A stretch of 37,336 bases of DNA, taken from positions 1 to 37,336 of the IMG/VR virus record IMGVR_UViG_3300034061_003231, one strand, 5' to 3'. Under the pieces are notes generated by a model that was not told where the DNA came from, made no database searches, and was given only the letters and a program-made list of their open reading frames with translations. The DNA is from a virus. The number at the start of each line of letters is the position of its first letter. Position 1 is the stretch's first letter. The position numbers and the translations under genes are program-made. This document shows positions 14,766-32,272 of the stretch, in pieces.

Positions 14766-14822
14766 TTTCATCCCCAAAAATCTTCTTCGTTAAAACTCAT
14801 CCCCAAAACTGCGCTTCGTTGA
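14766..14822 (-). repeat. Tandem copies of the tag-coding segment
   Basis: Two adjacent copies (14795-14822 and 14766-14793) of a 28-base unit with core GATTTTTGGGGATGA, about 22 of 28 matching. Each copy supplies FWG-stop to a different reading frame. The second copy matches the end of the helicase gene (15569-15596) at 26 of 28 bases. Confidence 0.7.
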
Positions 14823-15574
14823 AGGTCGCAGCATGCTTTGGCGAACTCCGCCGCAATTTGGGGAACGATTGCATTGCCGTAACCGCGCAGGCGCACCACT
14901 CGGGCGGGAATTTCATGAGCCAACGGGAAAAATGCGGGTTCAGTTGGGATGCGGCGGCTTTTTCCGTCTCTACAGTGAATGCTGCTACTCTCGAAAGCAT
15001 GTCGTTCCTTTCCTTCCCATCTTTCCTCCATCGGCTGTTCTCCAGATTGCCAGTGTCTCTGTAGTCCCTGGCTGCCGGAGTTGGCCACCCAGTAGAGTCT
15101 CCGTCTGATATGCGGTGCGCCGACGCTGTGTGCGCCCAATACGGCAGACCCGCAGGTGTAACCTTCTTCACCCAAGTCTGTCGATATTCCATCGAGCCAA
15201 CCTTTGCCAATCGCGCTTGCAACCTGCTCCCCAAAGACATATTCAGGGCGGCATTCCTTGATGAGATTGAAGAACACGGGCCAGAGGTGTCGCTCGTCTG
15301 CTTGAGCAAGTCCCCTTCCTGCTGTTGAAAATGGCTGGCAAGGGCAGCTTCCGGTCCACACAGGACGATCTGAGGGCCATCCTGCAAGTTGCAAAGCAAG
15401 GCTCCATCCTCCGATTCCGGCGAAGAAATGGCACTGCGTGTATCCGGCGAGATCGCTTGGGCGCACGTCTGTAATTGATCTTTCGTCAACAACTCCATGC
15501 GGGATAAGGCGTTGCTTGATAAGTTCTCGCAGCCATGCGGCGGTTTTTTTGTCATGTTCATTGTAGTAATTCAT
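14768..15574 (-). CDS. DNA (cytosine-5) methyltransferase ending in FWG tag
   Basis: 268 residues from the ATG at 15574 that overlaps the helicase stop. The motifs are in canonical order: FAGIGG (residues 51-56, SAM), SCPCQPFS with catalytic Cys79, GEQVAS at 115-120 (in place of the usual ENV), RRRLYWVA (motif VIII) and GNAIVPQIAAEF (motif X). The target-recognition region between VIII and X is short. It probably modifies phage DNA to evade host restriction. The last residues are SFNEEDFWG, the tag shared with unrelated neighbours. Almost the whole gene is overlapped by a second plausible frame (14797-15561). AGGAGG in the preceding gene lies about ten bases before the start, one of the few SD-like sequences here. 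Confidence 0.85.
   Translation of the reverse strand: MNYYNEHDKKTAAWLRELIKQRLIPHGVVDERSITDVRPSDLAGYTQCHFFAGIGGWSLALQLAGWPSDRPVWTGSCPCQPFSTAGRGLAQADERHLWPVFFNLIKECRPEYVFGEQVASAIGKGWLDGISTDLGEEGYTCGSAVLGAHSVGAPHIRRRLYWVANSGSQGLQRHWQSGEQPMEERWEGKERHAFESSSIHCRDGKSRRIPTEPAFFPLAHEIPARVVRLRGYGNAIVPQIAAEFAKACCDLQRSAVLGMSFNEEDFWG
14797..15561 (-). CDS. Overlapping-frame ORF inside the C5 methyltransferase gene
   Basis: 254 residues in another frame of the same strand. Its composition is protein-like, and its segments (YRQTWVKKVTPAG, then GWPTPAARDYRDTGN, then LNPHFSRWLMKFPPEW) resemble a family repeatedly found with, and overlapping, phage cytosine methyltransferases. It ends in TFNEAQFWG, its own copy of the tag, encoded by a separate tandem copy of the same DNA segment that encodes the methyltransferase tag. 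That makes a spurious frame less likely. The function is unknown. The main doubt is that open frames can be maintained as a by-product of the conserved overlapping gene. Confidence 0.45.
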   Translation of the reverse strand: MNMTKKPPHGCENLSSNALSRMELLTKDQLQTCAQAISPDTRSAISSPESEDGALLCNLQDGPQIVLCGPEAALASHFQQQEGDLLKQTSDTSGPCSSISSRNAALNMSLGSRLQARLAKVGSMEYRQTWVKKVTPAGLPYWAHTASAHRISDGDSTGWPTPAARDYRDTGNLENSRWRKDGKERNDMLSRVAAFTVETEKAAASQLNPHFSRWLMKFPPEWCACAVTAMQSFPKLRRSSPKHAATFNEAQFWG

Positions 15575-17016
15575 CCCCAAAAATCCTCCTCGTTAAACTC
15601 TGGTTCCTCCACTGGCACAAACTTCAAGGGTTTGCCTTTGCGGTCGCCTTCAAGCAACATCAGGGCGGTGAGTAGCCGCTGCTCCGTGTTGCGCTTTTCT
15701 TCTAGCACCTCGGCCACGACATCGTCCACGGTGTCGGGCACCATCAAACGATAAACTGTGACTACGTCTTTCTGTCCCCGCCGATGGAGACGTGCGATGG
15801 TCTGCTCATAGCACTCACGCGAGTAAGTAAGGGACATCCACACCATGGTCTGTGAACCAGTTTGGAGATTTAGACCGTGGCCCATGGACATCGGGTGCCC
15901 GACCAACATTGAGATCTCTTTGCGGTTCCATTGCGAGATCATTTGCATCTGCAATGCTGGTGTTTTTGCATCGGCAAAAAAGCGAGCCTGCGGAAACTTG
16001 CGACGGATACGGTCTTGCTCGTGTTTGAAATCACAGATCACCAGCAGCGGCCCTTTGGTTTGCTTTGCGATCTTGGCTAGGGCGGCGGTCTTGCAGTCGT
16101 GAACCTCGTGGACTTTTTTCTCGCCGTCGTAGATGGCACCGGAGGTGAACTGCAACAGCTTGCGCACGAGCACAGCGGCGTTGGCTGCGGTGATTTGCAC
16201 TTCCGACCGAAGTTCGAGGATCAGTTCTTTCTTGAACTCCTCGTACTGCTCCAAGACGTGTTCCGGCAACTTAACCTCCACGTCCTCGATGTGGCAGTCC
16301 GGCAAGTCTTTGAGCCAGTCGGACGTACGCAGGGTGAGAGTGATGTCGGCAATGCGCTGGTCGATGCGTTCGGCTGCCCCAGGTATCGGTTCCCAGTTGT
16401 ATTGCTGGTAATCGGTGGCGGCGAAGTAGGTTTTCTTGAAGTGGTCATAGCTGCGACCAAGGCGTTGCCCGTCGTCGAGCAGGCGCACTTGGGCGAACAG
16501 ATCGAGGAGGCTGTTGGGCGCTGGAGTTCCAGTCATCGCGATCCGGTGCTTCACTTGCGGTAGCTCGCGACGAAGCATGTTGATTCGTTTGCTGGCAGGG
16601 TTCTTGGCTTTGGTGCTCTCGTCGTACACGATCATCTGGTAAGGCACTGTGCCGCCGCGCTTCTCTACCAGCTTCACCAACATCGGGATGGCCTCGTAGT
16701 TCACAACATACACATCAGCCTGACCGGCGATGAAGGCGCGACGACCTAGCGGCGTGCGAAGATTGGCGACTTTGAGGTGCTGGAATTGTTCCCATTGCTG
16801 CACCTCCATCGGCCACGTCAAATTACACACTCGCACCGGGGCGACGACCAGCATGGCCTCGACCTCTAGGTTTTGCTGCAACTGACAAAAGGCGGACAGG
16901 ATACTAGAAGACTTACCTATTCCCATGCCTACGAGGGCAAACACGACATCTTGGTTGACGATCTTGTCGATCATCAGTTTTTGAGGCGGTTCGGGTGTAA
17001 AATTCACGCCGCCCAT
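15571..17016 (-). CDS. SNF2-family DEAD/DEAH helicase-like ATPase ending in FWG tag
   Basis: 481 residues. Motif I is GMGIGKSS (residues 30-37), motif II is VYDESTKAKN (Asp132-Glu133), motif III is MTGTPAPNS (161-169), and motif VI is IARLHRRGQ near residue 420, with the HPMSMGHGLNLQ segment before it. This is the compact SNF2 type common in phages. Such proteins translocate on double-stranded DNA and may act in replication, recombination or remodelling of bound proteins. The C-terminus is EFNEEDFWG. The start overlaps the upstream gene by 13 bases; a GTG overlapping the stop (GTGA, at 17006) is an alternative that removes three residues. Confidence 0.85.
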   Translation of the reverse strand: MGGVNFTPEPPQKLMIDKIVNQDVVFALVGMGIGKSSSILSAFCQLQQNLEVEAMLVVAPVRVCNLTWPMEVQQWEQFQHLKVANLRTPLGRRAFIAGQADVYVVNYEAIPMLVKLVEKRGGTVPYQMIVYDESTKAKNPASKRINMLRRELPQVKHRIAMTGTPAPNSLLDLFAQVRLLDDGQRLGRSYDHFKKTYFAATDYQQYNWEPIPGAAERIDQRIADITLTLRTSDWLKDLPDCHIEDVEVKLPEHVLEQYEEFKKELILELRSEVQITAANAAVLVRKLLQFTSGAIYDGEKKVHEVHDCKTAALAKIAKQTKGPLLVICDFKHEQDRIRRKFPQARFFADAKTPALQMQMISQWNRKEISMLVGHPMSMGHGLNLQTGSQTMVWMSLTYSRECYEQTIARLHRRGQKDVVTVYRLMVPDTVDDVVAEVLEEKRNTEQRLLTALMLLEGDRKGKPLKFVPVEEPEFNEEDFWG

Positions 17017-17321
17017 CCTTCCACCGTGCGATACTCAATGGGACGCCCAGCAACCTGTGCCGCACGAACACCAAACTCCATGCCTCGGCTTATGCCGCAG
17101 TCAGTGTACACGACGGTCTTGTTTGCTCGCCACGCCAGCCCTGCGGCAATGCCCATGGCGCGGTCGGTCGGGTCTTCGTCGTCAAGGACTTGGGTGTAGA
17201 GCAGGTGGCTCACCATCGGCGCTTCGCCGCGCAACAGCGAGTCGCGCATGGCGGCACGGGCGTAGCGGATATTGCGTTGCAGGTTGCCTGCGTAGGGCGA
17301 TTCGAGGATTACGGTGGTCAT
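17004..17321 (-). CDS. DUF7768-like small protein (nucleoside deoxyribosyltransferase-like fold)
   Basis: 105 residues. It opens TVILESPYAGN and contains RARAAMRDSLLRGEAP-like, SHLLYTQVLDDEDP and TVVYTDCGISRGM segments, matching a family common in phages and annotated DUF7768/DUF4406-like, related in fold to nucleoside 2-deoxyribosyltransferases. A role in nucleotide metabolism is inferred. A GGGGAG seven bases before the ATG is one of the few SD-like sites. Confidence 0.65.
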   Translation of the reverse strand: MTTVILESPYAGNLQRNIRYARAAMRDSLLRGEAPMVSHLLYTQVLDDEDPTDRAMGIAAGLAWRANKTVVYTDCGISRGMEFGVRAAQVAGRPIEYRTVEGWAA

Positions 17322-17323
17322 GT

Positions 17324-17827
17324 TTATTCTCCCCAGAAGTCTTGTTCGTCCAGCGTTGGAGGGCGTACCAGCACTCCGTTGATATGCCCTGCCAGCCTTG
17401 CTTTATCCAGAGCTGAGTAGTCGGCTTCCGAGAAGCCTACTAAGGCGCAGTCTCGCATGATGGAAAAGTTGCTACCGTCCAGTCGGGTGAACTTCGGGCG
17501 CTTTTTGAGGAACAGAACGGCTGACGCGGTAAAGCAGTACTCTTGAAACCATTGAGTTCCTGTGCTGGCAAGAACTAATGCTACCCCGCTACCGTGGGAT
17601 TTCATCTTCTTCATCCACGGCGCGGGGTTCGAGTATGGTGGGTTGCACCAAACTCTACCCTCCCAGGGGGTGGCGAGTCCGCACTCGGGGAGAGATATTA
17701 TGCGATCTGCTGTTGGATGCACAGACACTCCGCAACAGTCGATGTCGAAATCCCCCAAAGAGCGAATCAGCGGCAGCGGTGTGAGAGATATGTCTTTGTC
17801 CTCGTTCTTATGGTGTTCGGGATTCAT
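17324..17827 (-). CDS. Phage N6-adenine methyltransferase (Dam-like) ending in FWGE
   Basis: 167 residues from the ATG at 17827; an earlier in-frame ATG at 17848 lies inside the preceding gene. VWCNPPYSNPAPWMKK contains the catalytic NPPY motif of adenine methyltransferases, and the upstream DFDIDCCG and downstream VALVLASTGTQWF segments fit the phage Dam family (PF05869). It likely methylates adenines in phage DNA against restriction. The C-terminus LDEQDFWGE carries the shared tag with one extra Glu and different codons (TTC TGG GGA) from the helicase copy. Confidence 0.8.
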   Translation of the reverse strand: MNPEHHKNEDKDISLTPLPLIRSLGDFDIDCCGVSVHPTADRIISLPECGLATPWEGRVWCNPPYSNPAPWMKKMKSHGSGVALVLASTGTQWFQEYCFTASAVLFLKKRPKFTRLDGSNFSIMRDCALVGFSEADYSALDKARLAGHINGVLVRPPTLDEQDFWGE

Positions 17828-17828
17828 G

Positions 17829-18278
17829 TCAAAAAGGGTCTCCATCATCTTCTTCCACGGGTGCCGCCTGCCCGCGTATCTTTGCGTTGACGAACTGCTG
17901 GCGGCGTTCGGCGTTGCCCTTCACCACATTCTCGGTGCAGGTGAGCACTTGAAGATTGTCGAAGGTGTATCCCTTCGTCGCGTCGATGCGGTCGATGTGC
18001 AGGCAGAATCTCCCCTTGCCTTTGTCGTCCATGTACCGTGTCGGTTCAACCAATGCTCTGAACTCGTCTAGGGTGAGGGCGAACTCGATCTTCCGCTTGC
18101 GAGCGGATGCACGCAGGTTGTCGAAAGCGCAGTGGACGGGGTTGTTCAGCCGCCACTGCTCCTTGGCGTGGGAGCCGCAAAGCTGGGTGCTGCGAGGATG
18201 GTCTGACAGGTTCCTCGGTTTGCTGCGGCAGCGTGCGACGGGACAGCGGCCCGGCAGTTTCTTTTTGCGCAGTTTCAT
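17829..18278 (-). CDS. HNH-type nuclease with SSB-tail-like C-terminus
   Basis: 149 residues, ATGA-coupled to the VRR-NUC gene. The N-terminus is basic with Cys pairs (CPVARC, LCGSH). The core CLHIDRIDATKGYTFDNLQV followed by CTENVVKGN matches the His-x-Asp-Arg ... Asn-Leu-Gln ... Asn ... Lys-Gly pattern of HNH endonucleases (about residues 92-120). The last eight residues, EEDDGDPF, closely resemble the acidic Asp-Asp-x-Pro-Phe tail of bacterial SSB proteins. This may be a homing or DNA-processing nuclease. Its position among tagged DNA enzymes argues for a working phage function. Confidence 0.7.
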   Translation of the reverse strand: MKLRKKKLPGRCPVARCRSKPRNLSDHPRSTQLCGSHAKEQWRLNNPVHCAFDNLRASARKRKIEFALTLDEFRALVEPTRYMDDKGKGRFCLHIDRIDATKGYTFDNLQVLTCTENVVKGNAERRQQFVNAKIRGQAAPVEEDDGDPF

Positions 18279-18583
18279 CCCCAGAACCCTCCTTGCTCAA
18301 TCAGTTTGTCCACGAAGTCTTTGCCGTCCGACACGTTGTCGCACCAGCCTGTGTTGGCACCCACCTTCGCCAGCAGTTCCATTTCTGCTTCCTGTGCCTT
18401 GGTCGGCTTGCACCCACCGCGCTTGATCTCCAAAAAGCCGACCACCCCGCCCGGCGCAATGATCAGACGGTCAGGCACCGAACGGTTGTTGGGTGAGACG
18501 AACTTGCGGACGTAGCAGCCTTTCAACTTGGCGTAGTCGCAGATTTTTTTCTCGATCTCCTTTTCGAGGGGTGGGGGTTTCAT
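18275..18583 (-). CDS. VRR-NUC domain nuclease ending in FWG tag
   Basis: 102 residues from the ATG at 18583 (ATGA overlap with the upstream gene). It shows the family pattern: Glu near the N-terminus (EKEIEKKI), VSPNNRSVPDRLI with the active-site Asp, FLEIKRGG with Glu-x-Lys, and a Gln downstream. This is the PD-(D/E)xK fold of VRR-NUC proteins, which act as structure-specific nucleases (for example on branched DNA). The C-terminus is IEQGGFWG; the codons for Gln-Gly-Gly create AGGAGG nine bases before the next start. Confidence 0.8.
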   Translation of the reverse strand: MKPPPLEKEIEKKICDYAKLKGCYVRKFVSPNNRSVPDRLIIAPGGVVGFLEIKRGGCKPTKAQEAEMELLAKVGANTGWCDNVSDGKDFVDKLIEQGGFWG

Positions 18584-18669
18584 AAGTCGTGGTCTCCATA
18601 AATTACCCAATGGATGGTCAGAAGAACCAATCCAGAGAAGACGAGGATGAAAGGAAGGTGCTCACTCAT
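18580..18669 (-). CDS. 29-residue single-pass membrane peptide
   Basis: A short reading frame with one hydrophobic segment (LPFILVFSGLVLLTIHWVIYG). It starts on the ATGA ending the previous gene, with AGGAG upstream, and itself ends in ATGA with the nuclease start. The double coupling supports a real gene. Function unknown; it could be a small membrane effector. Confidence 0.5.
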   Translation of the reverse strand: MSEHLPFILVFSGLVLLTIHWVIYGDHDL

Positions 18670-18812: not shown

Positions 18813-18817
18813 GGTGG

Positions 18818-20881
18818 TTACTTGGTGTAGTAGGGTTGAACTTTACCATCGGCTGCCACGGGCAGACCTTTCGTCCACTCAGGCACATTGGTCATGTGTC
18901 CAACCAATTCTTCGATGGACTGGCTTTCACGAGTGTAGGTGAGAATCTGGTCATGGATCAGCGAGCACACCTCGTAGCCCGCTGCCTCTGATTTGATGAT
19001 GCCGTTGTTGAGCAGGTCAGCGCCGACCCCTTCGCAGAAATTCTGGAGCAAAAGACCTCCGTATAGACCGCATCGACCCCAGATAGTTTTGCCGCGAATC
19101 TGCCCCCAGTAGGTGAGAGATTGACGAGTTTTGATCTTGCCGCTTTCCCACGTCTCAATCTCTCCGGTCTTCTTGTTCCGACTGACGGTCTCCTCAATTT
19201 TGGGATCGCGGTAGGCGAGACGACGACCTGACGGCAGTTTGGCGAACAGATACTTGGTTCCCGCCGTTACCGCGCAAAAGAACTCGACTTTGCCCGCCTG
19301 ATGGCGGGAACCAAAATTACTCACGGCGGCTTTGGCCGCACGATCATAGGCGTGCCAGACTTTGACGATGTTCGGATTAGCTTCTCGCCATTGCTCGACC
19401 ACCTCCTCCAACTCTTCCTCCTCCAACTCTTCCTCCTTCACCCCCATGTCGAGAGCACCCATGGCTTTGAGAGCTTCCACTCCGCCCTGGTATTGAAGTG
19501 CCAAACTTGCGACCTTACCCTTCTGTCGGTCTGGGTGATGTTTGCCGTGCTCTTTGGCGTAGTCTAGCATCTCCTGCAAAGGCATCCCAGACATGCGGCA
19601 TGCGGTCGCCTCGTAAATCTTGCCGTGAGTGCGGAACACTTCAAGCGTCCACTCCTCGTTCGCCAACCATGCCGCGATACGGGCTTCGATACTGCTGAAG
19701 TCCACGTCGAAGATCGGCCCAGCTTCGTCGTGAATGAAGTGACGGATGCACGAGCCGATGACCTCCAGCAGAGGTCCGTAGAATATTTCGATGTGTGCCT
19801 CGCTCGCTCCCGCCATGATGTCGGCGTAGGCGGCGTCGGTGTTTTTGATCGTGGGGCGTTTGAAGTTCTGCGGCTGAACCAGTCTGCCGGATGCACGACC
19901 CGGACCTGCGCCGTAGAATTGAATGGTGCCGCGCACCCGGCTGTCAGCACACGCACACTCGATCATTGCTTTCACCTTCTTGATGCTGGCAAAGCTGAGA
20001 GACTTTTTGATGGTGAGCACGCGACCAACCGTCGTGGTGGGGTCAAAGGCTTCATCCTCCAACTGTTCGTCCAGTGTGTCGGCGCGGAGGTTGTCGCCCT
20101 CATACCCGTGCTCCTTGAGCCACTTCAACAGCACGTCACGTTGGGTCGGGTTGAAGCCGGTGAGTTCACGGAACTCCTCGGTCATGCGAGCCTCGTTGGC
20201 TTCGATCAGCGTTTGAGCGTGACGCAGGGCGGGCAGGTTGACCGGCAGACCACGGGAGTTGATGGCGAGGTCAGCCTGGAACGCTGCCAGCGTGTTGCCG
20301 GTCAGCTCGAAGTGCTTGAGAGTTTTGTGGATTCCCTGCTCCGCACGAACGTCTTGGATACAGTAATTGCAGAATGCAATAAAGTCGTCCTGTCGGTCAA
20401 TGGGTTGAATGAACTTGCCGGAGGCTTTCTGCGGGATGGAGAACTTGCGGATCAGTGCTTTGCCTTTGCTGTCCTTCTGTTGCAGCAAGCCCAGCGTCTC
20501 GGCAGCTTTCTCCAGGGATGGCGGGATGGCAGCGCGGCGGGACATGGCGGCGGTGCAGCGCCAGCGGCGGTAGTCGATCTTGAACCAACGGTTGTTCGGG
20601 CAGTGGTTGGTGATCGCCTGCTCGAAGTAGGCGTTATGCGCGTACACCGGAGCATCGTTGCGGTTCATCTCGGCAATCAGTTCGTCCACCCCTGGCGACG
20701 ACCGGCACACGGACATGTCGTCGAACTCGAACTTGGGATTCACCCACAGCAGCGGACCCTCGCCGTCGCGAGCTATGGCTGCGCACAGGATCTCAGTGGA
20801 CGGGTCTTCCGCGTACCGAAAAGCGCCTGTGCGCTTGATGTCCGCCGTTGAGCGTGTCTCGAAATCCAGATGAAAATTCAT
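18818..20881 (-). CDS. Family A DNA polymerase with 3'-5' exonuclease
   Basis: 687 residues. The exonuclease domain has Asp6-Phe-Glu8, AHNAYFEQAI (residues 81-90) and YCIQDVRAE (173-181). The polymerase motifs are A, FDVDFSSIEARIAAWL (391-406), B, RQKGKVASLALQYQGG (452-467), and C, LIHDQIL (641-647). Motif C normally reads His-Asp-Glu; here Gln645 replaces Glu while the catalytic Asp644 is kept. It is the likely phage replicase, clustered with primase-helicase, SSB and nucleases. An Asp/Glu-rich segment (EEEELEEEELEE-like, about 482-493) lies in the fingers region. Confidence 0.9.
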   Translation of the reverse strand: MNFHLDFETRSTADIKRTGAFRYAEDPSTEILCAAIARDGEGPLLWVNPKFEFDDMSVCRSSPGVDELIAEMNRNDAPVYAHNAYFEQAITNHCPNNRWFKIDYRRWRCTAAMSRRAAIPPSLEKAAETLGLLQQKDSKGKALIRKFSIPQKASGKFIQPIDRQDDFIAFCNYCIQDVRAEQGIHKTLKHFELTGNTLAAFQADLAINSRGLPVNLPALRHAQTLIEANEARMTEEFRELTGFNPTQRDVLLKWLKEHGYEGDNLRADTLDEQLEDEAFDPTTTVGRVLTIKKSLSFASIKKVKAMIECACADSRVRGTIQFYGAGPGRASGRLVQPQNFKRPTIKNTDAAYADIMAGASEAHIEIFYGPLLEVIGSCIRHFIHDEAGPIFDVDFSSIEARIAAWLANEEWTLEVFRTHGKIYEATACRMSGMPLQEMLDYAKEHGKHHPDRQKGKVASLALQYQGGVEALKAMGALDMGVKEEELEEEELEEVVEQWREANPNIVKVWHAYDRAAKAAVSNFGSRHQAGKVEFFCAVTAGTKYLFAKLPSGRRLAYRDPKIEETVSRNKKTGEIETWESGKIKTRQSLTYWGQIRGKTIWGRCGLYGGLLLQNFCEGVGADLLNNGIIKSEAAGYEVCSLIHDQILTYTRESQSIEELVGHMTNVPEWTKGLPVAADGKVQPYYTK

Positions 20882-20988
20882 AGTGCGGAAAAAGGTGCCA
20901 GCGCCAAGGATACCAAGCAGGCTGGCGGCTACTCCAATAGAAGGGTAAAGAGAAAACCCTCGGTTGCGACTCTCTTGGCTTATCGGAT

Positions 20989-21102: not shown

Positions 21103-21109
21103 GAATTGG

Positions 21110-21352: not shown

Positions 21353-21372
21353 GATGTTTGGGTGTTGGCGAG

Positions 21373-21483
21373 CTACCACATTGTCAGCAGGTTGCTCAGT
21401 CTCCGTTCGGAAGGTGGAGTCTTTAGTTCTTGGATTGGGTACCAAGCGATCAAGACGATATAGCCACCTCCAAAATTCTTCAC
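21373..21483 (-). CDS. Likely 36-residue protein with GTG start overlapping SSB stop
   Basis: The frame begins with GTG overlapping the SSB TGA (GTGA), the same type of junction as at 28216-28219, and ends 20 bases before the next start. The translation has a hydrophobic N-terminal half and a polar tail (TPPSERRLSNLLTMW). Small size makes it uncertain. Confidence 0.4.
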   Translation of the reverse strand: MKNFGGGYIVLIAWYPIQELKTPPSERRLSNLLTMW

Positions 21484-22112
21484 ATGTCGTCGATGCTAAG
21501 ATCGGCGGCAGGTTTCTTCGCAGCCGGTTTGGTGGCTGGCGCGGGTGCGCTCTCGGACTCGTCGTCCAGATCAATACCGGCAAACTCGGACTCGGCGTCC
21601 ACCGGGGCAGCGCCGAAGGGTTCGCCGTCAGCATGGAAGATGACCACACGCAGCTCGGCGTTGATGCGCTTGCCGAACTTGTTGTCCATGGCCCAGAGGC
21701 GCACAGAAGCGTGGACGTAGCAACCAGCGTAGGGCTTGCCGTCCTCGGGAGACAGAGGCTCGAACGCCTTGTTGACCACACGAGGTTTGCGGTCCTGCTT
21801 GGAACTGGCGGAGAGGAACATGACGTTGTCGCCATAGCCGTCGCTGCCGTCGCGCTCGGAACCGTCGCGAAGGCAAGGTTTGATACCGCCCGGAGGCTTG
21901 CCTTTCCACTTTTCTTTCTTGAGGGCGTCGATGCGGGCCTCGACAGCTTTGATGGTTTCAGCGTTGGTCTTCTTGTCGAGGATGAAGTTGGCGCTGTAAA
22001 ACGGATCGCCGCCTTCGTCGCCAAAAGGGGCAGGTTTGAAGATTTTCGGGTAGGACAGTCTGACGTTTTTCAGCAGAACGATGTTCGGATCGGCGGTGTT
22101 GGCTTGGCTCAT
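21480..22112 (-). CDS. ssb-like: Single-stranded DNA-binding protein, DUF2815 / T7 gp2.5-like
   Basis: 210 residues from the ATG at 22112; the longer open frame upstream covers the promoter and an AC-rich leader. The N-terminus (IVLLKNVRLSYPKIF) and FYSANFILDK are signatures of DUF2815 proteins, related to T7 gp2.5. The C-terminal 50 residues are a Pro/Ala/Lys linker with acidic stretches (EFAGIDLDDESES, then DLSIDDM at the end), the usual partner-binding tail of phage SSBs. It coats single strands during replication. It is preceded by its own promoter and followed by GTGA coupling to a tiny ORF. Confidence 0.8.
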   Translation of the reverse strand: MSQANTADPNIVLLKNVRLSYPKIFKPAPFGDEGGDPFYSANFILDKKTNAETIKAVEARIDALKKEKWKGKPPGGIKPCLRDGSERDGSDGYGDNVMFLSASSKQDRKPRVVNKAFEPLSPEDGKPYAGCYVHASVRLWAMDNKFGKRINAELRVVIFHADGEPFGAAPVDAESEFAGIDLDDESESAPAPATKPAAKKPAADLSIDDM

Positions 22113-22178
22113 GTTCGTGGTCTCGGTTTGTGTGTGTGTGTTTCTCGGGTCGCCGCGTTGTGCGGTAGAGGTAGAGGT

Positions 22179-22208
22179 AGAATATCCACAGATGGTTCTG
22201 CGGGTCAA
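22179..22208 (-). promoter_or_regulatory. Promoter upstream of SSB
   Basis: TTGACC at 22208-22203, 18-base spacer, TATTCT at 22184-22179 on the minus strand. The -35 lies in GGGTTGACCC, the same ten bases as at the Dps promoter. The leader to the SSB ATG is about 65 bases with CA repeats and no SD. Confidence 0.45.
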
Positions 22209-22216
22209 CCCCGAAA

Positions 22217-23416
22217 TCATTCTTCGTTCAAATCTACGCCAGCAAAGTCGCTGGTCATGTCGTTCTCGTATGTTTTGCGTGGGTCGCTCTCAGGCACGGC
22301 CATCGGGCTGCCGGGCGGCTTCACAATCAGGCGTTGCAGCTCGATCATCTTCGGACCTTTCATCTTGTCCGTCAGTTTCTCTGCCGCAGCAGGGGTGATC
22401 ACGTCAGACGGCGGATAGACTTCGTCGTGTGGAAGGTTCAAACTGAGCAGCAGTTTGCCCGCTTCGGCAGGGTCGGTCCAACGGCGGTGCCCGCCACGGG
22501 AGAGCACCAGCTTGACGCCGGGCAGTTTGTTGCCGGAGATCAGCCGAGCGGTGACGAACTTCTCGATCTCACTCAACCACAGGTAAATGCTTTCCCTCGC
22601 TTTGAACGCCTTCACCACATGCTCATCAGGGAGGGTGGCTACGGCAGGCGGCTCGTTGCCCTCCAGCACTTCCAACACCTCATCCTTAAAGTCGTCCAAC
22701 ATGGCGTCGTTGTAGGTAGGGCAGATGGCTGCCCCACGGCACCACTTGCAAATCTTCGGCCCGCACTTGAACACGCCGGGATCGCCGCGCAGGATGGCTG
22801 CCGCTTTGGGGGTGATCCGCTCATCCGTGAATTTCTTCAACTCACCCCAGGTGGTCGTCCAGGTGACGTGATCCTGCTCCAGCCGGGGTTGGAAGATGGT
22901 CATGGTGACGGGGTAGCTGTCGGCTGGCAGTGCCTCCCAGAACCCGTCGAACATGGACTCGATCAAACTGCGGGCGTAGATCGCCATCTGGAGGTTGTTC
23001 TCACTCTCCACTGGATCGTAGCCGTACTTGTAGTCAACGAGGTGAGCGCCGTTCTTGGTGAGCGCGTGGAAGTCCACGGTACCACGCTCGGACGGGAGGT
23101 AGTAGAGTGGCGCTCGGAACTCGGCACCCCAGCGGATGACATCACACTTTGGACCCATCACGTCATGGCAAAACTCGGCGTACGCTTTGCCGTGCCGCAG
23201 CATTTCCTTGGTCGCCCACTTTGGCGGCTCTTTGCCGAGAAGCAGATACTCGGCAACTGTGTGGGCCTTGGTGCCTTCCATGGCTGACGGTCCCGGTCTG
23301 TCCGGTGGCAGCCGGTGCTCGTTGGCCTTGACGAAAGCCAGGGCAACCGTGCATTCGGTCCAAGTGTGAGCCTTGGACGGGGAGAGGCGAGAGTGTTCGG
23401 GAGTGGTGTCGGCCAT
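22217..23416 (-). CDS. DUF2800 protein, Cas4/RecB-like PD-(D/E)XK exonuclease
   Basis: 399 residues from the ATG at 23416, five bases after the previous stop. SAMEGTKAHTVAEYLL, GTVDFHAL and LVDYKYGYDPVE (about residues 115-130, acidic plus Lys active site) and a cysteine patch CKWCRGAAICP near 225 fit DUF2800, a RecB/Cas4-like nuclease family often paired with DUF2815 SSB in phage recombination modules. The last residues are DFAGVDLNEE. In the same frame after the TGA come Phe-Arg-Gly-stop, i.e. a nonsense-truncated relative of the NEEDFWG tag. Confidence 0.75.
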   Translation of the reverse strand: MADTTPEHSRLSPSKAHTWTECTVALAFVKANEHRLPPDRPGPSAMEGTKAHTVAEYLLLGKEPPKWATKEMLRHGKAYAEFCHDVMGPKCDVIRWGAEFRAPLYYLPSERGTVDFHALTKNGAHLVDYKYGYDPVESENNLQMAIYARSLIESMFDGFWEALPADSYPVTMTIFQPRLEQDHVTWTTTWGELKKFTDERITPKAAAILRGDPGVFKCGPKICKWCRGAAICPTYNDAMLDDFKDEVLEVLEGNEPPAVATLPDEHVVKAFKARESIYLWLSEIEKFVTARLISGNKLPGVKLVLSRGGHRRWTDPAEAGKLLLSLNLPHDEVYPPSDVITPAAAEKLTDKMKGPKMIELQRLIVKPPGSPMAVPESDPRKTYENDMTSDFAGVDLNEE

Positions 23417-23421
23417 GGGGA

Positions 23422-23667
23422 CTATTTGTTGAGTTCCGCGATAAGGCAAACCGCGTGGATGGTGGCTTTTTCAGCGATGTCTTCGTAAAAATCATATCCT
23501 TCTCCCGTCATGTCCGCATGGTCATGTTTTATCACCAACTGGTGGTTGGCGAGGAGTCCTTGCATCGCCATCGCAGCGAAGTATTCGCGTTTGGTGAGTC
23601 CCGCCAGAGACGGGTAATCTTTGTCTGTTTCTGTGGAGAAAGTGGGGGCTTCGGTATGAGTTTCCAT
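23422..23667 (-). CDS. Small conserved phage protein
   Basis: 81 residues with TKREYFAAMAMQGLLANHQ and a C-terminal helix ending AVCLIAELNK, a pattern seen in many phages near replication and recombination genes; the function is unknown to me. First gene after a terminator, with no obvious promoter. No SD before the ATG. Confidence 0.7.
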   Translation of the reverse strand: METHTEAPTFSTETDKDYPSLAGLTKREYFAAMAMQGLLANHQLVIKHDHADMTGEGYDFYEDIAEKATIHAVCLIAELNK

Positions 23668-23679
23668 AAGTCTGTACCC

Positions 23680-24694: not shown

Positions 24695-25037
24695 TCGTCA
24701 GTTGATCTTTCAACGCCTTGACTGCCGCGTTGTAGATGTCGGGAAGGTCTTGCTGCATCATTTTGCTTTTGGCAATCTCAGGAATCACGACCATCATGGC
24801 GACGGTGTTGGAAGAGGGAATGAACGCGGAAAACAGCAGAGTAGTTACCGCCACAATCATGCACCGAAACCCGGATTTTCTTATTTTGGGGCGATCTTCG
24901 TCATCCAAATCAGGGTAGGTGGAAGCTACATAAGAGACGATGGCAAAAATTGCGCATGCAACACTGAAGACTATGACAGCAGAGCCGAACTTGTCGGTGA
25001 GTTGCCAGAGATAGATGGTGAGCGGGGTGATGTTCAT
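24690..25037 (-). CDS. Two-TM phage membrane protein
   Basis: 115 residues. It has two hydrophobic segments (AVIVFSVACAIFAIVSYVA at about 20-38; MIVAVTTLLFSAFI at about 60-73) and a soluble helical C-terminus. This topology is common among phage inner-membrane proteins of unknown function. It is ATGA-coupled to the primase-helicase. Confidence 0.6.
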   Translation of the reverse strand: MNITPLTIYLWQLTDKFGSAVIVFSVACAIFAIVSYVASTYPDLDDEDRPKIRKSGFRCMIVAVTTLLFSAFIPSSNTVAMMVVIPEIAKSKMMQQDLPDIYNAAVKALKDQLTK

Positions 25038-25058
25038 AGGTTTTCACTATTGGATGAA
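25033..25058. repeat. 26-bp direct repeat, copy 2
   Basis: Matches 24650-24675 (22 of 26, with 15 contiguous bases TCACTATTGGATGAA). It covers the 3' end of the primase-helicase gene and the next start codon. Confidence 0.6.
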
Positions 25059-27634
25059 TTTTCAGACTTGTCCACCAACATTTTCACGGGATCTCTGCCA
25101 TTGAGGCGATCGGCGCGTGCCCAGACGTACTGCCGCTCACCCGCGATCATGTGCCGACCGGATGGCGAGAACCCAGCGTTGCGCAGGACATGGGTGAGGT
25201 ATTTGGGGGTGATGTTCTTGACGCCTTCCGCGTCCAACGCGGACCTGAGAGCACCGACAGCCACCGCGTCAGCCTGGATCAGCGGGCACTCGTCGTTTTG
25301 CCAGATGCGGTTGAGCACGGCAGTCACGTCGTCGCTGGTGTCGGTGATCATTTCCTGCAAATATGAGGTAGTCGGGGCCGGGCCGGAGGGACGAAACGTG
25401 GAGCTGATGACGCGGTTCTCGAACATGTAGCGGTAGCCGCCTGCGTGGGTGGTTAGCGACTCGGCGAACCGGGCGAAATATTCCGGGTCTTTGTCCACGA
25501 TGGCGCGAATCTGCTCTTTGTGCTGGAGCTTCGACTTCACGACCCACCAGCGGCGTGAATCCTCACCAACCACGATGGCGTCATGGTGGTTGGTGAAGGC
25601 CATGTAGTTTGTCCTATTCTGGATGTTCCGCGTGTTTTTGTTTCGCTCATTGACCGGCAGGAAGTCGTTGGTGATCGGCTCTTTGAGCGTGTTCATCAAC
25701 TCGTGACGGTTCTGCCCGGCCACTCGAAGCTCTTCGATGCACACCACCTGTGAGCCGAAGGCCCAGTCGTTCCACCCTTTTTTGATGGTGTCGGAATTGA
25801 TCAGACGGGTGTTGTCGAGTCCCAGGATAGCTCGGATGACGCCGAAGAGCAGCGTTTTGCCGCAACCCTCCACCCCCTGGATGAGCAGCGCATGACGCAC
25901 CTTGCTGCCGGGGAACTGCGCATGGTAGGCGATCCAGTCGAGCAGGTGAGTTCGGTAAGCAGGTTCGATGATAATGTTGCAAAGTTGCTCGCACAGCACG
26001 TCTTCCGCGTAGTCGGCCAGTGCTTTGTCGGCTTCACGGTAGCTGCGACGGTAGAGGTTCACAAAGAGCTTGCCCTCCTCCCGCGTGATGATGTCCTCCG
26101 GGGCTGACGGGTTGTAAGTTACGTCGTCAACGGTCTGACATTTGAGATGGTTGAGCAGGTACAGCGACGGCAACACCTTGGGCGTGTTGAGGGTTTGCTC
26201 GTTCACGTCTCGACCGATGGCCTGCAACTCGGCAGCCGTGGGGAGCAGTTTGCGGGCAAACACCGAATCGAACGGCACCTTCTTGTACTCCTGCCGGGTG
26301 CGGTGCCGCAGGAACGTATCAGTGGCGGCGATGTACACGAAGCCCAACGACCATGGGGGGTGAATCACTTCCGCCGACTCGCTGCGTTTGGCGACGAGAC
26401 ATTCGCGAAGCACCTTCAACTCACGCTTCACGTTCATGAGCGGCAGCGGTTGCTGGTAGTCCTGCCGGGACTTCATCACCAGTGTTTGCAGCAAAGCGCC
26501 TTCCTCGACGTGGGAGAGCAGCGGGGCGGCAGCGATGCGCCGCACACCTTCGTTCATCAACTGGACTGCCGACTTGCATTCAAACATGATCCAGTCAGAG
26601 ACGGTCTTGAAGCTAGACTCCTTGACCTTGTCACTGTTCCACCCACCCTCGACAGCACGTTTGAGCAGCGAGCGGATGGTGACGGGTTTGCGGCCTTGAG
26701 CCTGTTCTTGGAACGAGCGCCAGACGGTCGCCGTGTCCTTGTCGCCTTCATACTTGCTGCCCGTGGCGCTCCACGAGTCAAAAAGGGTGTACGCCTCATC
26801 GTCCTGCGATCCGCCGAATTGGTGCTTCAGGGCTGCCGCGATTTCCAGCCACTCGGGACGGGAGCAGTCGGCATTGATGAACGTAAGAGCCTCCTCCACC
26901 TGGGTAAGGTTCACACCTGCCACCGGGAATTGGAAGAAAGTCAGGAAGTCGTCGATGCTGCCGGAGGACGGCCCGCGACTCGGCTTGCTGCCCGACACGA
27001 TGCCCGGCAGCGAGTCGAGGTCGGTGGAAATGTCGTCGGGTTTGAACGCACGCCCACCAAAATGCATGACGAGCACGGGATGCTCCAGATCGGGATCTTG
27101 ATCCGCGAAGACGGTGGGACGAAACATCGGTTGGCACACGATAGCAGACTCCCTCGTCACCTTTGGCAGCCCTAGAAGCTGCCCCACCGTGAGGGCTGCG
27201 TCGGGGTACCGCTCAACGGGCACGCTGTCGGCTTCCACGATGACGCGGATGCGTGGGGACGCAGGCGTTGAGCTAATGGTTTGGTAGGCTGCGAAGTTGT
27301 ATTTACCCAGTGCGTCGATCAGCAGACTCGGCTCTTCCACAAAACGTCTGGCGTCGTCGGCGTCGTCGATGTCTAGGATGATGAGGTGGCAGGGTCGGGC
27401 GTGCTCCAGCTTGCGGCCTTCCCACGGCGAAGTACTGAAGGTGCAGGGGACCACATACCCAACGAGTTTTGCTTTAGCTTTTTCGGCTTTGGGCAGTGCA
27501 TGGTATTCCGCGTGGGTGACGGAGAGCGGCACCGGCAGATCGATAAATTGCTGAGCAAAATCGCGGAAGGTGGAAGCTGGTGACTTGACCAGCGTGTGGC
27601 TGCCAACGTGCTTGCCTGTAAAGTAGGAGGGCAT
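25034..27634 (-). CDS. Primase-helicase (AEP-like primase plus SF3/D5-type helicase)
   Basis: 866 residues from the ATG at 27634, seven bases after the previous stop; the longer open frame overlaps the upstream gene. The N-terminal domain has LIILDIDDADD (about 84-94) and SSTPASPRIRVIVEAD (121-136), the metal-site and Arg/His region of archaeo-eukaryotic-type primases. Next comes a primase C-terminal-like segment (WLEIAAALKHQFGG). The helicase has Walker A QGVEGCGKT near 590, Walker B VVCIEELR near 630, and TNHHDAIVVGEDSRRWWVV near 685, the D5/DUF5906 phage helicase pattern. It is the likely replicative initiator, unwinding and priming for the family A polymerase. Confidence 0.85.
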   Translation of the reverse strand: MPSYFTGKHVGSHTLVKSPASTFRDFAQQFIDLPVPLSVTHAEYHALPKAEKAKAKLVGYVVPCTFSTSPWEGRKLEHARPCHLIILDIDDADDARRFVEEPSLLIDALGKYNFAAYQTISSTPASPRIRVIVEADSVPVERYPDAALTVGQLLGLPKVTRESAIVCQPMFRPTVFADQDPDLEHPVLVMHFGGRAFKPDDISTDLDSLPGIVSGSKPSRGPSSGSIDDFLTFFQFPVAGVNLTQVEEALTFINADCSRPEWLEIAAALKHQFGGSQDDEAYTLFDSWSATGSKYEGDKDTATVWRSFQEQAQGRKPVTIRSLLKRAVEGGWNSDKVKESSFKTVSDWIMFECKSAVQLMNEGVRRIAAAPLLSHVEEGALLQTLVMKSRQDYQQPLPLMNVKRELKVLRECLVAKRSESAEVIHPPWSLGFVYIAATDTFLRHRTRQEYKKVPFDSVFARKLLPTAAELQAIGRDVNEQTLNTPKVLPSLYLLNHLKCQTVDDVTYNPSAPEDIITREEGKLFVNLYRRSYREADKALADYAEDVLCEQLCNIIIEPAYRTHLLDWIAYHAQFPGSKVRHALLIQGVEGCGKTLLFGVIRAILGLDNTRLINSDTIKKGWNDWAFGSQVVCIEELRVAGQNRHELMNTLKEPITNDFLPVNERNKNTRNIQNRTNYMAFTNHHDAIVVGEDSRRWWVVKSKLQHKEQIRAIVDKDPEYFARFAESLTTHAGGYRYMFENRVISSTFRPSGPAPTTSYLQEMITDTSDDVTAVLNRIWQNDECPLIQADAVAVGALRSALDAEGVKNITPKYLTHVLRNAGFSPSGRHMIAGERQYVWARADRLNGRDPVKMLVDKSENSSNSENL

Positions 27635-27641
27635 GGGGCGG

Positions 27642-28016
27642 TTATTCTTCGACCCAGAGGTTGAGAGCGTGGAGAAAAGCCTTGGCCTGCTGCTCGGCAG
27701 TCGCGGTGGCGCGGTCTGCAACATGATCGACGTGCCCCCCATGTTTCACCAAACCGTCCAGCAACTCGATGTACCTCCAATATGTGTGCCCGTCTGGCAG
27801 CTTTTTCACAGCCTCGTGCATAGCGTCGAGACTGTCGAGGTAGTCAGGGATGATCTTGACCACGCCGCCACTACGCCAACCTTTGCGCCGTGTCCTGGCG
27901 GCGGAAGGAGTGAAGTACCCACGCTTCCACGCATCAGGGTCGGCAGGGTTGGCGACCTTCAGTACTTCAAGCCCGCACGCCTCGGCAATCGCAATTCGCT
28001 GTTTCTCGGGTGTCAT
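27642..28016 (-). CDS. Small phage protein, ABA-sandwich-domain type
   Basis: 124 residues from the ATG at 28016 (ATGA overlap). It begins MTPEKQRIAIAEACGLE, a common phage opening, and has DYLDSLDAMHEAVKKLPDG, a signature of the phage ABA sandwich domain. Function unknown. It is coupled to the upstream HTH gene. Confidence 0.65.
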   Translation of the reverse strand: MTPEKQRIAIAEACGLEVLKVANPADPDAWKRGYFTPSAARTRRKGWRSGGVVKIIPDYLDSLDAMHEAVKKLPDGHTYWRYIELLDGLVKHGGHVDHVADRATATAEQQAKAFLHALNLWVEE

Positions 28017-28607: not shown

Positions 28608-28652
28608 GCCCTTGAGCGGTTTGGGGTGGTTGGTGATCCAGGTCCTGACAGG

Positions 28653-30116: not shown

Positions 30117-30200
30117 TGGAAGGAGTAAGGGTCGTTGGTTTTTTCGAGACTCCATCCCGCTCGGATAACCGAGATGAATGTCGCCGCGATAATCAGCAGG

Positions 30201-30437
30201 TCAGTTAACAGGCTCGTAGGTTTGTTCAAAGATGTCGGGTTTGCAGGCGTACACCTCGCCTTGAACTCCTGTGATGATCCAATCGCCTGGAGTCACTTCG
30301 TGTTTGATGGCGGTGTGCTCAAGCGTGTGGATGCCGAAACCTGTGGGGGATGTAATATCTGCCACAACTGAAGGGTGATCCCCTTCTTTGTTGAACCGCG
30401 TAGCTTCGATGATGACTGGTCTTTTCCTGAATTTCAT
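30201..30437 (-). CDS. Conserved small phage protein between the NARP1 pair
   Basis: 78 residues from the ATG at 30437 (ATGA overlap with the Prs-like gene). It starts MKFRKRPVIIEATRF and has GDWIITGVQGEVYACKPDIF, a very widespread phage family of unknown function. The placement between the two NAD-salvage genes may be coincidental. Confidence 0.75.
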   Translation of the reverse strand: MKFRKRPVIIEATRFNKEGDHPSVVADITSPTGFGIHTLEHTAIKHEVTPGDWIITGVQGEVYACKPDIFEQTYEPVN

Positions 30438-31222
30438 AGTCCGAGTTTGATGGTGGTTACTTTGTCTGCGGCGTGATGCCAAAAGCTGTCGGTTGTGATG
30501 ATCTCGTCAAACTTCTCCTTCAAAGTGTGAAAACCTTTGGAGAAGATGCCGTGCGAAACTATCAGGGTGAGGTGAACTGGTTCAATCTGCTCTGCGATGG
30601 CAAGGAACGTGGCTCCACCATCGCAAATGTCGTCGATGATGACGCAGTTGCGTCCAGTGCAAATTTCCGGGTTCTGTACCACGAGGGACACACGCCCGGT
30701 CGTGGTGTCGCGGACTTTGTCGCAGAACACTTTTTCCGAAAGGCAGGCGTTCCAATCTTGGTAGTCGGCGGCTTTGCTGACAGCTCCTTTGTCGGGCACG
30801 ATGAGAACCGCGCCCAACTGGTTGTAGGCTTTGACCAGCCTGCTGTTGTTGTGAGATCGCGAGTTGTGAATCAAAGATGTGGCAACGCTGCTGTGAACAT
30901 CGAACAGGTTGACCGATAAGAAACCACAGGAGTTGATGCACTGCGCCACCACCTCAAGGTCAAAACTGTCGCCAGTATTGATGATGCGGTCGTACCGAGC
31001 ACCCATCAGGTAGGGTACCACAAGTTCGCGGGGTGTCGCTTGTGTGTGTCGCACTGCATTGACCACGAGCATCAACTGAACTAGTTCGAGGGGACTTCGG
31101 ATTGGACAAACAACCCGCACGTCGTCTCCCGGCTGAATGTCATTCACTGTGACGTGAGGCTGGTTGTCCGGGAAAAGGAGAGTTTTTACACGCTCTCCGG
31201 TGATCAGGTTGATGGTCTTCAT
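30434..31222 (-). CDS. Ribose-phosphate pyrophosphokinase-like, likely NARP1 Adps
   Basis: 262 residues from the ATG at 31222 (leader ending CAAACACACC, no SD). It has the PRPP synthetase pattern: ARYDRIINTGDSFDLEVVA (about 68-86), FDVHS, and the ribose-5-phosphate/PRPP loop CVIIDDICDGGATF (about 190-203). It is shorter than the roughly 310-residue bacterial Prs. In NARP1 the homologue Adps pyrophosphorylates ADP-ribose, giving the donor for Namat. In a plain salvage route it would make PRPP. It is the first gene of the unit with the NAMPT-like gene, behind its own possible promoter. Confidence 0.85.
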   Translation of the reverse strand: MKTINLITGERVKTLLFPDNQPHVTVNDIQPGDDVRVVCPIRSPLELVQLMLVVNAVRHTQATPRELVVPYLMGARYDRIINTGDSFDLEVVAQCINSCGFLSVNLFDVHSSVATSLIHNSRSHNNSRLVKAYNQLGAVLIVPDKGAVSKAADYQDWNACLSEKVFCDKVRDTTTGRVSLVVQNPEICTGRNCVIIDDICDGGATFLAIAEQIEPVHLTLIVSHGIFSKGFHTLKEKFDEIITTDSFWHHAADKVTTIKLGL

Positions 31223-31238
31223 GGTGTGTTTGAATTTC

Positions 31239-31270
31239 ACTATACTGAAACGGTGCGGACAGATTGTCAA
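31239..31270 (-). promoter_or_regulatory. Possible promoter of the Prs/NAMPT unit
   Basis: TTGACA at 31270-31265 on the minus strand, overlapping the stop of the preceding gene, and TATAGT at 31244-31239. The spacer is 20 bases, longer than ideal; a weaker -10 (CAGTAT) gives 17. Confidence 0.3.
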
Positions 31271-31716
31271 CCCCAAAAGTCGTCAGATTCTTCGACTGGC
31301 ATGGCCTTCCGACTCTCCTCGTCAATCTCCGCCTGCTCGGCGGCAGTGTAAGGCCACGCAGACGTTTCCCGTTTTGCCTGCCGCTTCGGAAAATACGCGT
31401 ACATCGTGTGCCGCGCATTGTTGACCCGGTTGGCGAGGCACACGTCCACGAAGGCGACCGAGTGTACGGCTGTCACCTCCTCCACGAACTTCATGGTCTG
31501 TTCCAACGGGACGATCAGGGTCGGTATGCTGTCCTCCAGGATGTCCTCGGCGTAGTCGGTCAACGTGCCAAGCTGCGACACTTTGCGGGCGGCGGCAGCC
31601 TCGTCGAGGTAGAGAGAAAAACCGTTGCTCTCGTGGAGCATGCGCAGGGTAGCGCGGGGGGCGGCGGCTCGCATGGCGGCGAGCTTGTCGGTGAATATGG
31701 ATTTGAAAAAGGTCAT
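31267..31716 (-). CDS. Hypothetical protein with C-terminal FWG tag (149 aa)
   Basis: Not recognised. It opens MTFFKSIFTDKLAAMRAAAP; the middle is helical (LTDYAEDILEDSIPTL, then VEEVTAVHSVAFVDV). The C-terminus is VEESDDFWG, encoded GAC GAC TTT TGG GGT TGA and not overlapping a downstream ATG, so here the tag is not explained by start-codon coupling. Start overlaps the previous stop (ATGA). Confidence 0.6.
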   Translation of the reverse strand: MTFFKSIFTDKLAAMRAAAPRATLRMLHESNGFSLYLDEAAAARKVSQLGTLTDYAEDILEDSIPTLIVPLEQTMKFVEEVTAVHSVAFVDVCLANRVNNARHTMYAYFPKRQAKRETSAWPYTAAEQAEIDEESRKAMPVEESDDFWG

Positions 31717-31955
31717 GCGAGTATTCGTTTAGGAGTGGAAAGTTTTTTGCGTAGCGAGCGGAACAAGTGATCCCACCCACATTCAACGGTCTTGCCTTGA
31801 GCGATGACCTGGATGCCATTCATGCGCGTCCCCTGCTTGATTGCCCACCGCCTCATCCTCCCGTCTGCCGCATGCCATTGCAGCACGCCCAGCAGTTCAC
31901 CGGCTGTATCCGGCTGTATCCGGCAGGTCCACTTGAGCGTTTGATCTTGGGTCAA
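31713..31955 (-). CDS. Small hypothetical protein with TTG start (80 aa)
   Basis: The TTG at 31955 overlaps the previous stop (TTGA). The N-terminal half contains WTCRIQPDTAGELLGVLQWH and the C-terminal half is basic (LFRSLRKKLSTPKR). No in-frame ATG lies near the 5' end. Function unknown. Confidence 0.5.
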   Translation of the reverse strand: MTQDQTLKWTCRIQPDTAGELLGVLQWHAADGRMRRWAIKQGTRMNGIQVIAQGKTVECGWDHLFRSLRKKLSTPKRILA

Positions 31956-32272
31956 CCCCAGAACTCTTTATCGTCTGAGGTGGCATCGGCTTGCTTGAGC
32001 TTCTCGCGCAGTAGGCGCATGCGGTGGGCCATCCACTGAGGATGTGCCTTTTGCTTCTTGGCGTTCCACGCGGCGGTCTTGGTCAGGTCGATCTTGCTGT
32101 CAAGGATGTGTGGTTTGCTGCCGCTTCCCGGTTTGCGCGGAGCCTTGGGCTTGCCTTTCTCGGCGCGATGGCGCAGCACGGTATTGGGGTGGCAACCGAC
32201 GATATTGGCAATCTCTTCGTTGCGCATGGTTTTCCATGAGATGGTCTTCGGGTACTTGATGGGGTCAGACAT
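31952..32272 (-). CDS. HTH-containing small protein with C-terminal FWG tag
   Basis: 106 residues. An HTH-like stretch MRNEEIANIVGCHPNTVLRHR (about 16-36) is followed by a Pro/Lys/Arg-rich linker and a basic helix (WMAHRMRLLREKLKQ). It ends SDDKEFWG (TTC TGG GGT TGA). Probably DNA-binding. The ATG is preceded by GGTCAT, no SD. Confidence 0.65.
   Translation of the reverse strand: MSDPIKYPKTISWKTMRNEEIANIVGCHPNTVLRHRAEKGKPKAPRKPGSGSKPHILDSKIDLTKTAAWNAKKQKAHPQWMAHRMRLLREKLKQADATSDDKEFWG

Follow-up and report, generated by a model that had tools for sequence, protein, structure and literature searches.

A lineage-specific Phe-Trp peptide tag on unrelated proteins of a phage clade and its possible role in docking to the replication machinery

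In phage T4, the proteins gp43, gp55 and gp33 have interchangeable C-termini that bind the sliding clamp (PMC2988020). The tails of the T7 single-stranded-DNA-binding protein (SSB) and helicase act on the polymerase, and also on the helicase (PMC5686142, PMC12593628). In crystals of Enc34-type SSBs the C-termini occupy the grooves of adjacent SSB molecules (PMC5686142). Here we analyse a virus record of 37,336 bases, possibly a fragment (G000, the whole of which we call the window), in which seven unrelated proteins end in the residues Phe-Trp-Gly (FWG), once with a further Glu. At the level of sequence comparison, we show that this ending belongs to a peptide tag under selection, that the tag sits on unrelated families, and that other shared endings occur on the same families elsewhere. 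Docking of all tagged proteins to one partner is our best inference from this pattern. The gene content of the window includes a family A polymerase, a primase (phrog_1156), an SSB of the Enc34/T7 type (PF10991), a DUF2800 exonuclease (PF10926), NAMPT and a terminase-like gene assigned by eye.

The seven FWG or FWGE endings claimed in the first-pass annotation are all present where it placed them, and all lie on the minus strand (Table 1). An eighth copy, which it had overlooked, is internal to an open reading frame (ORF) at 5146-6369 that is glycosyltransferase-like by eye, yet had no match in family searches. Among 52 window genes called by hand, seven end in FWG followed by zero to two residues, compared with 0.007 expected from composition (P about 1e-19), and chance origin of the tags was rejected. 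Residue shuffling over 3000 rounds never gave more than one FWG ending among the window genes. As a control, 430 ORFs were picked greedily from unrelated phage loci, and none has the ending. The chooser misses genuine tags as well, retaining five of the seven in the window (46 ORFs) and dropping a tagged control ORF in an unrelated 113-kb record, G016. That 104-aa ORF (L153:7121-7435) ends GEVDFWQGDDFWG (…DFWQGDDFWG), with two FW motifs; no other convincing tags were seen in the 60 kb of G016 that were read. A tag-pattern scan of viral_contigs returned 111 stretches, and among the loci read from it more than one convincing tag per locus occurred only in the clade of the window. L041 has one tag, plus a 58-aa ORF judged spurious. 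A crude unbiased scan for shared tail motifs gave corrected P values of 5e-6 for the window, 2e-7 for its relative G003 and 2e-5 for G026, a lineage described below.

The clade was found through SNF2 and terminase searches of viral_contigs together with the tag-pattern scan. The analysis used 16 of its records (G000, G003-G013, G019-G022), possibly all fragments, and a sister lineage (G023, G024, G025 and L175) stands near 60% in the terminase. A terminase scan of genome_contigs gave no relative, nor did the phages collection, and the window Dam found no relatives in viral_contigs. Across the clade the tag sits on about 16 protein families. Its core is FW after acidic residues, with an overall pattern of acidic-x-F-W-[G/D/S/A/E/K]. 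In the window group FW is mostly followed by G. Six of the seven tags of G022 have D, E, A or S at this place, those of G006 have D or E, the VRR-NUC of G005 has K and the SNF2 of G008 has S. Additional tagged families are PAPS reductase (PF01507), DUF4326 (PF14216), an N6/N4 methylase (PF01555), GNAT (PF00583), of which one protein (L142) has two tags, and DUF2800. Further tagged proteins, named by eye only, are HNH/AP2-like, second helix-turn-helix (HTH)-like and ribbon-helix-helix-like; in the last the tag is followed by a short basic stretch.

Orthologues were tallied as the best hit per record, window included, over the clade records other than the short ones (G001, G002 and the contigs of L040/L131 and L138). 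The FW is present in 14 of 15 SNF2 helicases, 12 of 12 VRR-NUC nucleases, 6 of 6 homologues of the 31267 protein and 5 of 6 of the HTH protein at 31952, so orthologues do keep the tag. In the VRR-NUC it is kept across six different tails. The internal copy in ORF 5146 is retained in 11 of 12 records, and the second HTH-like, ribbon-helix-helix-like and HNH-like proteins keep FW in 5 of 5 each. The SNF2 tag persists in G005, which has no Dcm, and is thus held by an orthologue without the downstream gene. DUF2800 is tagged in 2 of 10 clade records, namely G006 and G022, and none of 11 clade SSBs carries an FW tag. The Dam-like gene is missing at its window position in G003, G005, G010 and G012.

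Homologues outside the clade have no such tag. In the sister lineage FW was found in 0 of 4 SNF2, 0 of 2 VRR-NUC, 0 of 2 ORF 5146, 0 of 2 HNH-like, 0 of 1 Dcm and 0 of 1 Dcm-overlap proteins. The sister Dcm, 72% identical, stops 16 residues earlier and is tagless, and the sister Dcm-overlap ORF (51%) is four residues shorter at its C-terminus, which is unrelated in sequence. The Dcm-like gene (14768-15565) and the phrog_1008 gene (14797-15561), both on the minus strand, share nearly their whole length but are read in different frames, and the pair is also seen in the sister G023. In the window the two overlapping frames carry their tags 29 bases apart, and the G023 pair is without both. A PAPS-reductase set gave 46 closed ORFs, with two more loci yielding none. 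Three near-identical clade copies end NFWG and 0 of the 43 others have FW; 16 of these 43 stop exactly at SCEIGAD[DE], and the remainder end otherwise. In nine named phages with this SNF2 module, no such tail was seen on SNF2 (9 of 9) or on VRR-NUC (8 of 8 looked at).

Other lineages have shared endings of their own. In G026, six proteins end in D-P-L-x-[GD]-[VI]-[WF]: an XRE-like and an HNH-like protein (both by eye), an N4-methyltransferase, a possible relative of the 31267 protein (23% identity, ending VDPLADVF) and two others. The codons of these six endings are all different and all three stop codons are used. Near forms occur on the G026 PAPS reductase (DLLADIW), VRR-NUC and primase (KKIADIW), and the G026 SSB itself ends DDDLDGVM, resembling the same ending. 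The pattern [GD][VI][WFM], which was picked post hoc, ends 9 of 72 greedily chosen G026 ORFs, including the SSB, compared with 0.08 expected. G029, whose primase is 98% identical to that of G026, repeats the G026 endings on three proteins. A third form is seen in G027 (DUF2800 LEDWI, PAPS reductase EEGEWI, SNF2 EEESWI) and in the 4-kb record G028 (VRR-NUC KGEWI, SNF2 EEEEWI). The same enzyme can be compared under two endings: an N4-methyltransferase, 69% identical, ends EKEFWG in G020 versus DPLAGIW in G026, and PAPS reductase, 78% identical, ends NFWG in G003 versus ADIW in G026. As judged from these alignments, the ending follows the genome and not the gene, and is a property of the lineage rather than of the protein family. 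At L187:2600-4900 in G026, the N4-methyltransferase lies behind a DNA copy of the VRR-NUC tail and an apparent duplicated start of the SNF2 gene, a layout that looks like the trace of a cassette insertion.

The competing proposal of the first-pass annotation was a function in the DNA. In the form weighed here, a Shine-Dalgarno-like stretch with ATGA, or a recombination joint, would be kept and the peptide would be a by-product. ATGA is found in four of the seven window copies and at 17 of 36 distinct clade sites, and the gain or loss of Dcm and the exchange of SNF2 alleles both break within tag DNA. In G005 (no Dcm), G010 and G012 (both with a 58%-identical SNF2), the alignment to the window switches within the 28-29 bases of tag DNA, so that cassettes are exchanged at the tag. 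In a SNF2 tree the G010/G012 allele falls outside the window-type group, its exact placement being weakly supported. In the sister lineage the N6/N4-methylase and HNH-like genes finish in a repeated junction, TTGGAGGACTGCGGCGTATGA, which encodes LEDCGV or a near form. We read it as a DNA junction since the copies are nearly identical in DNA and found only at ATGA junctions; a fourth lineage tag is the less likely reading.

However, 19 of the 36 clade sites, distinct by tag and flank, are without ATGA, as are 18 of 32 when sites are distinct by tag codons alone and three of the seven copies in the window. The 36-site pattern needs an acidic residue within four positions and misses, for example, the VRR-NUC ending SPRGFWG; six ORFs judged spurious or structural were dropped from it (L156:7275, L146:166, L006:7995, L011:5305, L158:9431 and L011:12760). 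Conservation of the motif is thus not limited to overlaps with a start codon or a joint. The last two codons of SNF2 are GGA-TGA in the window but GGT-TGA in L141, and those of the HNH-like gene are GGA-TGA and also GGC-TAG (L011), with FWG kept in each. Internal copies exist as well, and the G026 endings vary in codons and use every stop codon. A DNA element as the sole explanation is already contradicted, and we consider it very unlikely. A DNA-level cause alone was rejected, and retained as a second role at SNF2/Dcm. There the Shine-Dalgarno-like stretch, the ATGA and the recombination joint bear out the DNA-level view, which fails for copies ending TTGA, TAA or TAG. Collectively, the orthologues, the varied codons, the sites without ATGA, the absence outside the lineage and the other endings on the same enzymes elsewhere strongly support selection on the peptide.

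We probed the replication module for links to the tag. PF10991 is present in 9 of 9 records searched, and residues 186-210 of the SSB, its tail, are modelled with a predicted local distance difference test (pLDDT) score below 50, as in disordered tails. The tails of DUF2800 and SSB vary together: over 18 genomes the own-genome score was 28.2 compared with 21.4 (standard deviation 1.3) in permuted pairs (P at most 5e-5), and 26.0 compared with 20.2 with P unchanged when three relatives from the window clade were left out. Among the nine named SNF2-module phages, five of the seven SSBs seen end [DE]DFL plus zero or one residue, one of the five (Emery) being our own assignment of an unannotated gene. 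The SSB of Stiles ends DSFLA, and those of Pasteurella, BcepC6B, AchV4, APSE-1, MJing1 and SR18 also differ from [DE]DFL. Two NatCom phages have primase-helicases with the endings DEDFLN and FEDFLQ.

Three other roles for the peptide were weighed. The tag might be a QxxLF-like docking motif for the host beta clamp (DnaN). The carriers are mostly DNA enzymes, the motif may be internal or terminal as in clamp motifs, and a search of nine records, possibly fragments, for the beta-clamp domain PF02768 (but not for clamps of the T4 gp45 or PCNA type) gave no match, such that a host clamp would be required. By eye, the list of tags lacks the Gln and Leu that are conserved in clamp motifs of bacteria, and the clamp pocket is conserved, so that differences between lineages such as FWG, DPLxGVW and WI would be unexpected; we regard the host clamp as an unlikely receptor. 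The proteins of the P1 Dar system, which include methyltransferases and a helicase, are thought to be packed in the head and ejected with the genome. A virion-loading signal of this kind would fit the tagged methyltransferases and helicase, and a lineage-specific capsid or internal protein could match a lineage-specific tag. It appears a shade less likely still than the clamp, as the tag also sits on proteins of HTH-like and ribbon-helix-helix-like type and, in two records, on the replication exonuclease DUF2800, and the co-variation of DUF2800 and SSB tails points to replication. Finally, each tail could mimic DNA and mask the DNA-binding site of its own protein. The T7 SSB tail and single-stranded DNA contend for one surface according to a reference title in PMC5686142, and removal of the Enc34 SSB tail altered DNA binding (PMC5686142). 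One sequence on many unrelated folds, varying by genome, is not expected of such autoinhibition in cis, which we hold to be the least probable of the alternatives.

The explanation that we favour, and consider fairly likely, is that a short linear acidic-aromatic docking motif delivers accessory DNA enzymes to one common partner, likely the receptor of the SSB tail. The FW motif would ride on C-terminal tails or linkers as a docking peptide, and all tagged proteins of one phage would bind one partner in the replication machinery. The receptor would most likely be the site that takes the phage's own T7-type SSB tail, in PolA, in the primase-helicase or in the SSB groove. Methyltransferases, nucleases, the SNF2 helicase and DNA-binding proteins would in this way be brought to replicating phage DNA. 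At the SNF2/Dcm joint, an incoming gene would gain the tag, the Shine-Dalgarno-like stretch and the next start together. A broader proposal is more tentative and may well prove wrong: phages with T7/Enc34-type SSBs could use lineage-specific address codes, in which a peptide like the SSB tail is copied onto accessory enzymes and directs them to the phage's own machinery only, bypassing the machinery of the host and of any co-infecting phage. Captured genes would be domesticated by gaining the tail, sometimes via recombination in tag DNA. Three such codes would be FWG, DPLxG[VI][WF] and acidic-WI, each evolving together with its receptor.

Several observations weigh against the favoured explanation. 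The window SSB ends ADLSIDDM, unlike FWG, and the link to SSB depends on the G026 ending DDDLDGVM, to a lesser degree on SDDWD in G006, and on the co-variation of SSB and DUF2800. That permutation ignores kinship, and the match of DUF2800 to its own SSB ranks best in only 4 of 15 lineages and is poor in several, falling to rank 10 for AchV4 and MJing1. The tag is missing in the G006 SNF2 (AFNWDD), the G022 homologue of ORF 5146, the G022 HTH protein of the 31952 type and 8 of 10 DUF2800 proteins. Binding to DNA is not known for the tagged PAPS reductase, DUF4326 and GNAT proteins. The counts lack independence, since many of the clade records are near-identical. In the crude unbiased scan of tails the signal was weak in G005 (4e-3), and G022 and G027 gave nothing. 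Its comparison set was made up of 15 named phages (whole records or stretches), two sisters and G014, in which the lowest values were 6e-3 (SGC, G024) and 9e-3 (ST, MJing1); these look like false ORFs, though they are of the same order as G005.

Table 1. Tag copies, joints and untagged replication genes of the window, with the junctions of the sister lineage
Feature	Position	Strand	Context
Tag FNEEDFWG	14771..14794	(-)	C-terminus of Dcm-like C5-methyltransferase PF00145, gene 14768-15565
Tag FNEAQFWG	14800..14823	(-)	C-terminus of ORF overlapping Dcm in another frame, gene 14797-15561, phrog_1008
Tag FNEEDFWG	15574..15597	(-)	C-terminus of SNF2 helicase PF00176, gene 15571-17016
Tag DEQDFWGE	17327..17350	(-)	C-terminus of Dam-like N6-methyltransferase PF05869, gene 17324-17848
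Tag IEQGGFWG	18278..18301	(-)	C-terminus of VRR-NUC-like nuclease, gene 18275-18610, phrog_93
Tag EESDDFWG	31270..31293	(-)	C-terminus of unknown protein, gene 31267-31716
Tag SDDKEFWG	31955..31978	(-)	C-terminus of HTH protein, gene 31952-32272
Internal copy AQDDAFWGD	about 5461..5487	(-)	Linker of ORF 5146-6369
Tag DNA as recombination joint	14767..14795, paired with 15570-15598	(-)	Flanks Dcm cassette; blastn breakpoints of G005, G010, G012
Sister junctions of TTGGAGGACTGCGGCGTATGA form	L173:4205-4240, 5213-5248; L174:7714-7749; L175:2020-2055; L176:6400-6435, 7454-7489		
T7/Enc34-type SSB (PF10991)	21480..22220	(-)	Untagged; candidate hub or archetype of the tail
DUF2800 exonuclease	22217..23449	(-)	Tail SDFAGVDLNEE matches SSB motif SEFAGIDLDDE
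Family A DNA polymerase	18818..20881	(-)	Untagged; candidate hub
Primase (phrog_1156; VapE-like)	25034..27742	(-)	Untagged in window; candidate hub

Some carriers are assigned from limited matches. The VRR-NUC-like nuclease at 18275 matches the phrog_93 endonuclease without any Pfam family match, and the HTH protein at 31952 has a weak match to phrog_664 (E 7e-4). An AlphaFold model of the 31267 protein has a mean pLDDT of 63 with a low-confidence tail, and structure comparison gave no PDB match at E 0.001.

Further features of the window were noted, all on the minus strand. The protein at 17829-18278 and its orthologues have tails of a [DE]..PF-like form (EEDDGDPF, DNEGDPF, EQDGDPF, QEGDPF; DEDENPF and PDDEQPF in the sisters), the orthologue in L007 ends QDGEAF, and EENEPF ends a different protein of G027. 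These tails resemble the bacterial SSB-Ct, DDDIPF, and are a possible second docking tail, perhaps for the partners of the host SSB. Adjoining the terminase, 8259-12244 encodes a radical SAM protein (PF04055), three SAM methyltransferases and a family 2 glycosyltransferase (PF00535), a cluster possibly for DNA or capsid modification; none of these five enzymes has the FW tag. NAMPT (PF04095, PF18127) and a ribose-phosphate diphosphokinase-like gene, the latter below the NCBIfam cut-off, lie at 28653-31276 and are likely a phage pair for NAD salvage. A pentapeptide-repeat-like protein at 36558-37235 (SGANLYGANL repeats, by eye) is the product of a DNA repeat.

The FW tag occurs on genes that vary between close relatives, namely Dam, Dcm and PAPS reductase. 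If the docking proposal is true, it would explain how captured genes are integrated into the phage replication programme, would allow the clients of a hub to be listed from sequence only, including unknown proteins such as 31267, and would provide natural orthogonal pairs of tag and receptor. Searches of an open-licence PubMed Central library gave no paper that describes such tags in its title or in the opening of its abstract. The sliding-clamp motifs of DNA enzymes are likewise short, lie in flexible tails and deliver many enzymes to replicating DNA, as proposed here; their sequence differs from that of the FW tag, which is lineage-specific. The bacterial SSB-Ct is also a short acidic-aromatic hub signal in DNA metabolism. 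It sits on the hub, however, and ends in Pro-Phe with a free carboxylate. The FW tags do not share this end: they are carried by the proposed clients and have at least one residue after FW. The tails of T7 gp2.5 and the Enc34 SSB are acidic with an aromatic or hydrophobic end and belong to the same replication module as is found here (PMC5686142). Unlike them, the FW tag is on accessory proteins and not on the window SSB, may be internal, and has G, D or S after FW. The shared docking tails known from phages involve few proteins. In T4 there are three, which bind a phage clamp (PMC2988020), compared with about 16 families here, an FW motif and no PF02768 in nine records; for interchange between carriers, it is natural differences between lineages that are seen here. 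The T4 C-termini are still the nearest precedent, as hydrophobic-acidic ends on unrelated proteins of one phage that serve one DNA-bound hub and are tolerated internally in fusions (PMC2988020), and the window clade likewise has both shared ends on unrelated proteins and internal copies.

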